From an uncultured Lachnospiraceae bacterium (GTDB lineage: Bacteria > Bacillota > Clostridia > Lachnospirales > Lachnospiraceae), in assembly GCA_947588675.1 (NCBI GenBank), contig CANPYY010000017.1:1-48550 (forward strand): DNA of 48,550 bases, written 5' to 3'. Position 1 is the stretch's first letter. Each line of letters starts with the position of its first letter. The notes beneath the pieces were generated by a model, which saw only the letters and a list, made by a program, of their open reading frames with translations, did no database searches and had not been told where the DNA came from. The position numbers and the translations under genes were made by a program. Below, in pieces: positions 26,929 to 30,175 of the stretch.

Positions 26929-28224
26929 ATGTCGGAATATATAGTTGGAAATCTGGCTGAAAAAAATATTTTTGTAAAAGTTCCCGGTTCAAAGAGTATT
27001 ACGAACAGGGCGCTTATGATTGCTGCGCTTGGAAACGGTATGTCATATATAACGGGAATACAAAAAAGTGACGATTCGGAGCACTTTATAAAATGTCTTA
27101 TTAATCTGGGATTTGAAATAAAGGAAAAAGATGATACTATTACCATTAAGGGAAATGATGGCGAAGTTCCGAATAAGAAAGCGGAAATATATGTGGGGAG
27201 CGCCGGTACGGCGGCGCGTTTCCTTACGGCAATGCTTGCAATGTCAGACGGCGAGTATATTATAAACGCTTCAGAACAGATGCAGAAAAGACCCATGAAG
27301 GAGCTTATACGCGCGTTGGAACTGTGCGGCGCAGAGTTTGAATTTCAAAAGGACGCCTATTCGCTTCCGTTTAAAGTAAGAGGCATAGGAAACAAAGGGT
27401 ATAAGGAAGAATTAATATTTGATATAAATATTGATAAGAGCAGCCAGTATCTTAGCGCGCTTATGATGGCTGCGCCTATGACGCATAAAAAGACTGTTAT
27501 CAGGCTTACGGGTACGCGCAGCGCTAAATCTTATGTTGTTATTACTGAAAAAGTAATGCAAAAGTTCGGCGTTGATATAATACACGACCGTGAAAATGAA
27601 TATGTAATTGAGGCAGGAGCGTTATATAAAGGAATAGAATATTTTTGTGAACCGGACGTATCAGCGGCATGTTATTTTTATTCTATGGCTGCGGCATGCG
27701 GTGTGAGCGCAGTCGTACAGGGCGTCCATACCGACAGTATGCAGGGAGATATAAAGTTTATCAAAGTGCTTTCGGATATGGGCTGTAAGGTAATTGATAC
27801 TAACGAGGGAATATGCGTTACCGGAACAGGAAAGCTTAAAGGTCTTACGGTAGATATGAGTGATTTTTCAGACCAGGCGCTTACGCTTGCCGCAATAGCG
27901 CCGTTTACCGATACGGGCGTGACGATAACTAATGTAGGACATATAAGAAACCAGGAATCCAACAGGGTGATGTCAATGTATAATGAGCTTGTCAGGATGG
28001 GAATAGAATGTACTGCGTATGATGATGGAATTAAAATAGAACCCGGCGCGCCAAAGCCGGCGCTTATAAGGACATATAACGACCACAGGGTTGCGATGGC
28101 TTTTTCTGTTACCGGACTTAAAGCGGAAGGAATAAGGATAGATAACCCGGACTGTTGCAGGAAGACATTTCCGGATTATTTTGAGATTCTTGACGGACTT
28201 TGCAATTGTAACAATCATGACTGA
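26929..28224 (+). CDS. aroA: 3-phosphoshikimate 1-carboxyvinyltransferase (EPSP synthase)
   Basis: A 431-residue enzyme of the shikimate pathway that condenses shikimate-3-phosphate with phosphoenolpyruvate in the cytoplasm. Motifs are VPGSKSITNRALMIAAL at the N terminus, GSAGTAARFLTAML (the family GNAGTAxR region), RQ-type phosphate contacts in SSQYLSALMMAAP and the C-terminal NDHRVAMAF. GGAGG lies 7 bases before the ATG. It starts 21 bases after the RND gene. Its TGA stop overlaps the left end of the structured element at 28223-28383. aroE, two steps later in the same pathway region, lies downstream on the other strand. Confidence 0.96.
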   Translation: MSEYIVGNLAEKNIFVKVPGSKSITNRALMIAALGNGMSYITGIQKSDDSEHFIKCLINLGFEIKEKDDTITIKGNDGEVPNKKAEIYVGSAGTAARFLTAMLAMSDGEYIINASEQMQKRPMKELIRALELCGAEFEFQKDAYSLPFKVRGIGNKGYKEELIFDINIDKSSQYLSALMMAAPMTHKKTVIRLTGTRSAKSYVVITEKVMQKFGVDIIHDRENEYVIEAGALYKGIEYFCEPDVSAACYFYSMAAACGVSAVVQGVHTDSMQGDIKFIKVLSDMGCKVIDTNEGICVTGTGKLKGLTVDMSDFSDQALTLAAIAPFTDTGVTITNVGHIRNQESNRVMSMYNELVRMGIECTAYDDGIKIEPGAPKPALIRTYNDHRVAMAFSVTGLKAEGIRIDNPDCCRKTFPDYFEILDGLCNCNNHD

Positions 28225-28383
28225 AAGCCTGCGGATTGCTCCGTTGCGCTGCAACTTACGCAATCCTACCCATATTCGCATTTCAGCCTGTCGGCCTTCA
28301 TGCTCATATGGGTTAGCCCGTCCGATGTCCATACGCCGGTTCATGCAGGCATGACCGTCGATGGCCGCCGTCCGGAGGCTTTC
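28223..28383 (+). repeat. Compact GC-rich structured element with terminal inverted repeats (four-stem fold)
   Basis: A non-coding block of about 160 bases, clearly richer in G+C than its surroundings. The ends are an 11-of-12 inverted repeat, GAAAGCCTGCGG (28223-28234) and CCGGAGGCTTTC (28372-28383). Inside are three hairpins. The first pairs GGATTGC (28233-28239) with GCAATCC (28260-28266) around GTTGC-GCT-GCAAC. The second pairs ACCCATAT (28268-28275) with ATATGGGT (28306-28313), with nested GCAT/ATGC and GCC/GGC pairs and symmetric internal loops. The third pairs CCAT (28329-28332) with ATGG (28361-28364) around CGG/CCG and TCATG/CATGA. It may be a dispersed MITE-like repeat or a structured RNA. 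It matches no riboswitch or T-box known to me. Confidence 0.6.
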
Positions 28384-28405
28384 GTATATATATAAGGAGG
28401 AAATG

Positions 28406-30175
28406 ATGAAACGGATTATAGAACTTATTGAAGATAAGATGAAAAATTCATTTAAGGAAGCGGGATATGATGAAACTTACGGTACTGTTAATATATCTAA
28501 CAGGCCTGATTTGTGTCAGTATCAGTGTAACGGTGCAATGGCAGCGGCAAAAAGTTATCATAAGGCTCCGATAATGATTGCAAATGATGTAACGGCGCTT
28601 CTTAAAGATAATGTGGTATTTGAAAAGGTGGAGGCTGTTAATCCGGGATTTATTAATATTACGCTGGCGCCTAAGTTCCTTGCAGATTATATTGATGATA
28701 TGAGAAAATCAGATAAATACGGACTTGAGCCATGTGGGGATGTAAAAAAGATTATTGTTGATTATGGCGGACCGAATGTGGCAAAACCGCTTCATGTAGG
28801 ACATCTCAGGGCGGCCATTATCGGTGAGAGCGTTAAAAGGATTGCGCGTTACGTGGGCCATGATGTAATAGGAGACGTTCATCTCGGAGACTGGGGGCTT
28901 CAGATAGGTCTTATAATAACCGAACTTGAAAAAAGAAGTCCTGAACTTCCGTATTTTGATGAAAACTATACGGGAGAATATCCGGCCGAGCCTCCGTTTA
29001 CAATGAGCGAGCTTGAAGAGATATATCCGTGTGCGAGCGCATATTCAAAGGAAAATCCTGAATATCTTGCCAGGGCGCAGCAGGCTACGGCTGATTTTCA
29101 GAACGGAAAAAGAGGTTATATTGCGCTGTGGAAACATATCATAGATGTATCCATTCCCGATATAAAGAAAAATTATGATAAACTTAATGTTTCCTTTGAT
29201 TTGTGGAAAAAAGAAAGCGATGTGAAGGGTTATATTCCTGATATGGTAGAGATGATGAAGGAAAAAGGCTATGCATATGAAAGCGACGGGGCTATCGTAG
29301 TTGATGTTAAAGAGGAAAGTGATACTAAAGAGATACCGCCCTGTATACTTCTTAAATCAAACGGCGCAACCAATTATGGAACTACCGACCTTGCAACAAT
29401 CATAGAAAGAATACGCCTGTTTAATGCCGACAGGATTATATATGTTGTAGATAAAAGGCAGTCGCTCCATTTTGAGCAGGTATTCAGATGTGCAAGAAAA
29501 ACAGGACTTGTAAATGATGATACTGACCTTGTGTTCGTAGGTTTCGGAACTATGAACGGAAAAGACGGAAAACCGTTTAAGACGAGAGACGGCGGAGTGC
29601 TCAGGCTTGAAACACTGATTGCAGAAATAGGTGATGCAGTGTATGACAGAATAATGGAAAACAGAAATATGGATGAGCATGAAGCAAGGGAGATTGCAGC
29701 AAAAATAGGACTTTCTGCGTTGAAATACGGCGACTTGTCAAACCAGGCTTCCAAGGATTATGTATTTGATGTGGACAGGTTTATTTCTTTTGAAGGAAAT
29801 ACCGGACCTTATATATTGTACGTTATAGTGCGTATCAAATCAGTACTTGCAAAGTATAAGGAAATGGGCGGGGATATCAAAAAGAGCATGAAGATACTTC
29901 CTGCTGCCGGTAAGAGCGAGACGGATATATACCTGTGCCTGTCCAAATTCCAGGATTGTATTATGAGCGCGTATAAAGATAATGCGCCGCATAAGATATG
30001 TCAGTATATATACGAACTGTCAAATGCATTTAACAGCTTTTACCATGATAATAAGATATTGTCAGAAGAAAATGAGGAAAGAAAGGAATCATTCCTTGCG
30101 CTTCTTATGCTTGTAAAGGATATTCTCGAGCAGTGTATAGACCTTCTTGGTTTTGAGGCACCGGAAAAAATGTAA
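28406..30175 (+). CDS. argS: Arginyl-tRNA synthetase
   Basis: A 589-residue class I synthetase that charges tRNA-Arg. It has the N-terminal additional domain, the HIGH-type motif HVGHLRAAIIGES after VDYGGPNVAKP, the degenerate KMSK-region KPFKTRDGGVLRL, and the ArgRS anticodon-binding C-terminal domain (LSNAFNSFYHDNKIL) ending in M. The paired ATG codons at 28403 and 28406 follow AAGGAGG; the second has better spacing. The in-frame ATG at 28361 lies inside the structured element and is unlikely. The gene is complete and ordinary apart from the unusual leader. Confidence 0.97.
   Translation: MKRIIELIEDKMKNSFKEAGYDETYGTVNISNRPDLCQYQCNGAMAAAKSYHKAPIMIANDVTALLKDNVVFEKVEAVNPGFINITLAPKFLADYIDDMRKSDKYGLEPCGDVKKIIVDYGGPNVAKPLHVGHLRAAIIGESVKRIARYVGHDVIGDVHLGDWGLQIGLIITELEKRSPELPYFDENYTGEYPAEPPFTMSELEEIYPCASAYSKENPEYLARAQQATADFQNGKRGYIALWKHIIDVSIPDIKKNYDKLNVSFDLWKKESDVKGYIPDMVEMMKEKGYAYESDGAIVVDVKEESDTKEIPPCILLKSNGATNYGTTDLATIIERIRLFNADRIIYVVDKRQSLHFEQVFRCARKTGLVNDDTDLVFVGFGTMNGKDGKPFKTRDGGVLRLETLIAEIGDAVYDRIMENRNMDEHEAREIAAKIGLSALKYGDLSNQASKDYVFDVDRFISFEGNTGPYILYVIVRIKSVLAKYKEMGGDIKKSMKILPAAGKSETDIYLCLSKFQDCIMSAYKDNAPHKICQYIYELSNAFNSFYHDNKILSEENEERKESFLALLMLVKDILEQCIDLLGFEAPEKM

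Follow-up and report, generated by a model that had tools for sequence, protein, structure and literature searches.

A Clostridiales-1 (RF01699) copy between aroA and argS in a Lachnospiraceae bacterium probably belongs to a family of mobile DNA elements

A structured noncoding block between aroA and argS in an uncultured Lachnospiraceae bacterium is a new copy of an already catalogued family, Clostridiales-1 (RF01699). The block was studied in a window of 48,550 nucleotides, meaning the whole stretch of DNA that was analyzed (contig CANPYY010000017.1, positions 1 to 48,550). We consider it probable (roughly 0.7) that the block is an old, immobile-looking copy inserted between the two genes in antisense orientation and that the family is a non-autonomous mobile element. 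Rfam types RF01699 as Gene; sRNA. The family was defined by Weinberg et al. in 2010 (PMC2864571), where the passages concerning it describe it as probably RNA and probably neither cis-regulatory nor a riboswitch; those passages do not mention dispersal, terminal repeats, or target duplications, whereas here the family looks mobile. In the relevant excerpts, PMC7302867 names Clostridiales-1 once, in a remark on dimer-rich paralogs, and PMC7682815 includes it in a data set. PMC4081043 was considered as a further RF01699 paper and rejected, as the match in its excerpt is a coincidence of gene number. Titles found in a literature search for miniature inverted-repeat elements in Lachnospiraceae look unrelated.

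RF01699 is the sole Rfam match in the whole window. The cmscan alignment covers model positions 1 to 166 of 166 and scores 101.9 bits against a gathering cut-off of 48 (E 4.8e-22). The window copy shares with the family this end-to-end match above the curated cut-off, a fitting taxon, and four paired stems, P1 to P4, with 56 of the 62 model pairs being standard. Because the match is on the minus strand, the element is antisense to aroA and argS. The features of the locus are as follows.

26929..28224, plus strand: aroA, upstream host gene (open reading frame; Pfam EPSP_synthase, E 4.5e-101)
28223..28383, minus strand: Clostridiales-1 (RF01699) element, full length (cmscan)
28377..28383, minus strand: 5' arm of the outer stem P1, GAAAGCC (fold, Rfam alignment, and repeat search)
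28317..28376, minus strand: P2, a long hairpin with apex G(CCTG)C (fold and Rfam alignment)
28268..28313, minus strand: P3, a hairpin with a conserved ATGAG / CGAAT internal loop and apex C(GACA)G (fold, alignment, and repeat search)
28233..28266, minus strand: P4, a hairpin with arms GGATTGC / GCAATCC (fold and Rfam alignment)
28223..28229, minus strand: 3' arm of P1, GGCTTTC, with a two-base overlap with the aroA stop codon (repeat search and Rfam alignment)
28406..30175, plus strand: argS, downstream host gene, with a start at 28403 or 28406 (open reading frame; Pfam arginyl-tRNA synthetase domains)

The original prediction, made from the sequence alone, had delimited the same block base for base, and its description of the architecture holds. 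The GC-rich composition that made the block stand out amounts to 58% G+C, against 35 to 50% in 160-base windows clear of the match. The predicted inverted-repeat ends are 13-nt arms at 28223 to 28235 and 28371 to 28383 with 12 of 13 positions complementary (92%); these are terminal inverted repeats as in a miniature inverted-repeat transposable element (MITE), although the repeat is not TGATRCC. The three inner hairpins are P4, P3, and P2, and the middle one, P3 (arms 28268 to 28281 and 28300 to 28313), carries the symmetric internal loop. The proposed four-way junction agrees with the minimum-energy folds of 28215 to 28390, which on both strands consist of a closing stem and three hairpins. 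Folding is stronger for the minus strand (-80.7 kcal/mol, z -6.3, 0 of 200 shuffles equally good) than for the plus strand (-67.9 kcal/mol, z -3.9, 1 of 200). Both ends also lie where they had been placed: the aroA stop TGA occupies 28222 to 28224, so the block overlaps it by two bases, and ten bases past the right end, at 28394, comes the start of AAGGAGG, the ribosome binding site of argS. The statement that no named family fits was wrong. The suggestion of a dispersed MITE-like repeat or a structured RNA came close, in that copies of the family are scattered, one of its forms bears terminal repeats and target duplications, and its covariation is heavy; further copies and covariation, whose joint absence had been named as the refuting outcome, were thus both found.

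Comparison with relatives suggests that the element is an insertion. An argS relative is present in all 10 genomes of the genus, and 5 of the 10 contain Clostridiales-1, with 28 matches genus-wide. None of the 9 other genomes has a match on its argS contig, so the window copy looks like an insertion. Seven of the nine other junctions were readable, and all are short and element-free, including those of the closest relatives, G007 and G006; the remaining two are those of G001, with a different gene upstream of argS, and G005. Judged from these sites, the element most likely arrived in the window's lineage. At its end, the window aroA exceeds the genes of G007 and G006 by a few codons. No direct repeat flanks the two junctions of the window copy, so the target duplication of a MITE is absent there, and the multiple copies per genome of a MITE are likewise not seen, with 1 copy in the window's 2.37-Mb genome, a draft of 95% completeness from which repeats can drop out. 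To the right of the element, argS is 98 to 100% identical to that of G007 from 28534 to 30083 (500-base windows over 28501 to 30000), and identity elsewhere in the 34 kb compared is about 69 to 89%; going by this identity profile, a recent recombination tract of nearly argS alone begins about 150 bases right of the element.

Elsewhere, Clostridiales-1 copies sit behind varied genes. A sample of 299 genomes (298 genera) of the bacterial family gave matches with E of 0.001 or less in 161 genomes, from 161 genera, and none were found in fourteen control genomes. Four one-contig genomes, scored more fully, hold 92 (G279, with 144 of 177 candidates scored), 31, 20, and 10 matches. Among the matches listed, the P4 hairpin pattern hits many named Lachnospiraceae. 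Of 18 such loci checked against Rfam, 13 have a match over the cut-off, including Eubacterium ramulus strain 21, Lachnospiraceae bacterium GAM79, a Butyrivibrio, and Catenibacillus scindens; the other 5 do not, so P4 occurs there without the whole element. Cultured carriers of a full-length copy include E. ramulus strain 21 and strain ATCC 27753, the latter listed as Lactobacillus rogosae (L244 and L224). Head-to-tail arrays of two or three copies in the same orientation are present in G071, G037, G213, G220, G104, and G279. A search with a single type A query copy (L032) gave no match in plasmids and, among phages, 17 unannotated faecal contigs labelled phage that are perhaps bacterial DNA.

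Several individual loci deserve separate mention. In G008 and G005, two species of the genus to which the window belongs, the related copies L007 and L008 follow seemingly the same gene, so some copies may be inherited in place. Copies lie 8 to 74 nt from T-box leaders in four genomes (G200 1356879-1357156, G290 1703146-1703423, G279 2088574-2088842, and G203:C107 98470-98796), a proximity that may be due to chance; two of the four are directly downstream of the leader in the same direction. In G290, the right flank of L069 holds a second, partial element (P3 and P4 only) adjoining the full copy, and in L057 and L003 the 3' part is tandemly repeated.

The copies fall into distinct forms. Among 127 distinct copies with flanks, 52 have a 3' extension that closes with a second inverted repeat, 31 have the typical 5' end only, and 44, which we call type B and which include the window copy, have neither feature. 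The true ends of the form with the 3' extension are TGATRCCAGGGTCAAAAG and its inverse. Exact 5-bp direct repeats stand at the ends of 25 of 53 non-redundant inverted-repeat pairs 180 to 215 bp apart, and exact 6-bp repeats at those of 10 further pairs (35 of 53 in total, none double-counted), against shuffled-flank means of 1.5 (maximum 7) and 0.3 (maximum 3), respectively. We take inverted repeats with 5- to 6-bp duplications as the signature of DDE-type transposition; on that footing the TGATRCC form transposes like a MITE, and these ends and duplications show that it is mobile. The site of one copy (L075) is empty in 8 relatives. Short versions of 71 to 112 bp keep both inverted repeats with much of the interior gone, several with target duplications (L138, L124, L150, L154 at 71 bp, L122, L147, L099, and L139). 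Within type B, the window copy belongs to a GAAAGC group, with a variable outer stem and no duplication, and its six best hits include L162, L219, L282, L172, and L182, with 71 to 82% identity over 94 to 126 bases. Another member of the group, L168, has a seeming 7-bp flanking repeat, identified by eye. Type B copies may have spread by another route than the TGATRCC form.

An autonomous partner was sought in five genomes by searching for TGATRYCAGGGTCAAAAG with up to 2 mismatches. The single contig of G241 has 17 forward and 17 reverse sites, which face each other only at 188 to 196 bp (six pairs) or 8.4 kb. Sites lacking a near partner were considered as autonomous ends and rejected, the loci inspected there being single ends, truncated copies, or derivatives produced by deletion. 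When 393 loci were scanned less strictly, 13 inverted-repeat pairs 600 to 3500 bp apart emerged, and the 8 reading frames scanned between such pairs belong to ordinary host-gene families, with no transposase among them. The listed copies split between replication strands as 26 of 51 in G279 (which has 92 matches altogether), 7 of 13 in G241, 2 of 9 in G290, and 2 of 4 in G200, with an origin near position 0 that fits the GC-skew flip in G279 and G241. This lack of replication-strand bias among the listed copies speaks against single-strand transposition, which we reject for now.

Two classes of known repeats invite comparison. Like MITEs, the TGATRCC form is short, with terminal inverted repeats, a target duplication, and many copies, but the window copy has neither the duplication nor the TGATRCC repeat, and Clostridiales-1 differs from MITEs in keeping a specific four-stem interior. 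REPs are described in PMC3733652 as 20- to 40-bp palindromes sorted by end tags. REP/REPIN elements with their RAYT enzymes are likewise dispersed palindromic repeats between genes; Clostridiales-1 differs in its length of about 160 bp and in the terminal repeats and 5- to 6-bp duplications of one form, and the window copy, at 161 bp, falls outside the REP range as judged by length.

Covariation was detected in 24 of 26 consensus pairs. Heavy covariation is the usual proof of RNA function. In the window copy, 24 of the 62 model pairs are changed on both sides and still paired, 30 are unchanged, 2 are changed on one side, 3 are broken, and 3 are gapped. The sequence of P1 varies among copies, yet its positions 2 to 6 are Watson-Crick paired in 41 to 44 of 44 type B copies; these positions were counted from the ends because the alignment is poor across P1 and most of P2, which the first consensus omits.

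The pairing is of an unusual kind, since G-U pairs, the usual intermediates of paired changes in RNA, are nearly missing. Across 56 copies they make up 96 of 3404 minimum-energy pairs (2.8%) and 28 of 1396 consensus cells (2.0%). Controls drawn from 16 carrier genomes gave 78 of 693 folded pairs (11.3%) and 27 of 514 consensus pairs (5.3%) for TPP riboswitches (26 of 28 matches, five of them below the Rfam cut-off, with two excluded for long insertions) and 306 of 2105 (14.5%) and 103 of 826 (12.5%), respectively, for 30 T-box loci; the gap to TPP is therefore smaller in consensus pairs than in folded pairs. The stems of 23 tRNAs, placed by a crude rule, have 23 G-U pairs in 254. Because every G-U pair corresponds to an A-C mismatch on the opposite strand, low G-U means that pairing is maintained on both strands.

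The hairpin loops are specific to one strand. In 118 non-redundant elements (of 172), 328 hairpins include 94 C(GNA)G, 38 C(GNNA)G, and 74 G(CTTG)C loops, 206 in all on one strand, and the complementary GNA/GNNA motif occurs once. Under DNA parameters, with which real elements again give 94 and 38, shuffled elements have GNA/GNNA loops in 12 of 785 hairpins. In 23 of the 38 GNNA loops the third position holds C or T, and the motif is therefore distinct from the GNRA loop of RNA. With RNA parameters, the better-folding strand is that of Rfam in 111 of 118 elements; with DNA parameters, the count is 114 of 118. Extraordinarily stable DNA mini-hairpins are reported in the relevant excerpt of PMC4686876 to have GNA or GNNA loops with G-C pairs, the same loop consensus as in Clostridiales-1, although those were synthetic oligonucleotides, and such loops may be stable in RNA as well. 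The scarcity of G-U and the one-strand loops together suggest that the fold is maintained at the DNA level, not as RNA alone, and they lower the RNA reading of the fold. Template switching in replication can create and repair such stems, according to PMC8794818. Two-sided and one-sided cells within genomes, which count copies rather than events, number 71 to 28 in G279, 49 to 48 in G290, 21 to 41 in G241, and 0 to 5 in G036, and such uneven ratios argue against template switching everywhere.

Type B copies tend to start at the stop codon of the preceding gene. Among those with a sense gene on the 5' side, 20 of 26 start at its stop, where uniform insertion predicts 7.1 (0 of 20000 simulations as many), with a stop counted when it lies at most 7 nt ahead of the element or inside its first 40 nt and with neighbors of at least 100 and at least 80 codons taken from a simple ORF caller. 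Two of these 20 stops lie 28 to 31 nt inside the element, and 18 lie within 7 nt. In a second set, chosen by its P4 hairpin, 10 of 15 start at a stop, with 2.3 expected; with only stops within 7 nt either side, the counts are 18 of 26 and 7 of 15. For the second set, 29 of 81 matches without a recognizable P1 were dropped, and in the remaining 52 P1 was taken as the longest perfect inverted repeat of at least 5 bp, which is perhaps wrong for some; one of the 52, not type B, shares a left junction with the first set. Copies with both inverted repeats prefer stops only weakly (4 of 16, 1.2 expected), and the remaining form, neither type B nor both-repeat, has 4 of 8 at a stop (2.2 expected). For antisense genes lying at the 3' end of the element, stops show no excess (4 of 15 against 5.2 expected and, in the second set, 2 of 11 against 0.6). 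The window copy, antisense to both of its neighbors, is oriented opposite to the type B copies that start at stops.

Several upstream proteins end, in our reading, as expected of full-length housekeeping proteins, and behind a gene that we presume to be metK the stop is at the same C-terminal position as in relatives; stop placement is thus not simply truncation. In L132, the stop TAG of the upstream gene consists of a T and the first two bases of the element, at the same C-terminal position as in L207 and L211. The inverted repeat of type B copies runs on into the host flanks, with 1.64 contiguous pairs against 0.46 after shuffling (0 of 2000 as high), compared with 0.95 against 0.80 (79 of 2000) for other copies. 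In L174, the outer stem extends several base pairs into the flanks, with a 5' T-run mirrored by a downstream A-run.

In the reading we prefer, a DDE-type transposase supplied in trans would move the element, and ageing copies would lose the outer repeat and drift while the four-stem fold stays. The fold would be kept by processes acting on DNA, namely, template-switch repair of palindromes and/or a step involving folded DNA, in which case covariation alone would be no proof of RNA function. Between aroA and argS the element would be a structured spacer, and a specific regulatory role for either gene is unlikely. We infer the enzyme, the path from the TGATRCC form to type B, and whatever function the fold has. 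Against this reading stand the single window copy, lacking duplication and TGATRCC repeat, the absence of a transposase from the frames scanned, the possibility that type B spread otherwise, the lack of replication-strand bias and the uneven two-sided changes, and the narrower consensus-pair gap to TPP. A stronger version, in which Clostridiales-1 is mainly a mobile DNA element with its function in the folded DNA strand and one form is fixed at stop codons with an outer stem mirroring the gene end, we hold only tentatively, as doubtful.

It is unlikely that each copy is instead a functional noncoding RNA gene or mRNA element, with type B in 3' untranslated or intercistronic mRNA, for example, as a shield against 3' exonucleases. 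The covariation, the better folding of the Rfam strand with RNA parameters, and the orientation-specific stop placement in both sets all speak for such an RNA, but that strand preference is as evident with DNA parameters, the stop counts rest on a simple ORF caller, the both-repeat form prefers stops weakly, G-U pairs are nearly missing, and the window copy is antisense to aroA and argS. Rather improbable, in our estimate, is an outer stem built partly from host sequence, with the element either entering an inverted target at gene ends or terminators or creating one there, and with a 3' arm that would thus copy the gene end as its reverse complement. The extension of the type B repeat into the flanks, the mirrored runs of L174, and the shared stop of L132 fit that origin; an old palindrome growing by template switch would look alike, and the comparisons, with relatives about 68 to 85% identical, yielded no empty site close enough to reveal the target as it was prior to insertion. 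A cis-regulatory argS leader or aroA 3' element peculiar to this operon, the former being a function raised by the original prediction, accounts for the overlap with the aroA stop and the spacing to the argS ribosome binding site, and the plus strand also folds, but the family is read on the minus strand, all nine genus relatives lack it near argS, and copies elsewhere follow varied genes; the leader reading is unsupported and largely refuted, and an element of this kind very improbable.

On the non-autonomous mobile element reading, Clostridiales-1, an orphan Rfam family found in common gut bacteria, looks like a mobile repeat and not an ordinary small-RNA gene. If its covariation stems from DNA-level processes, this would be a caution for covariation-based RNA discovery, and a scarcity of G-U pairs could be looked for at little cost in other orphan families as a test. 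Placement at stop codons raises a testable choice between an element that picks gene ends and one that is kept because it protects the upstream message.
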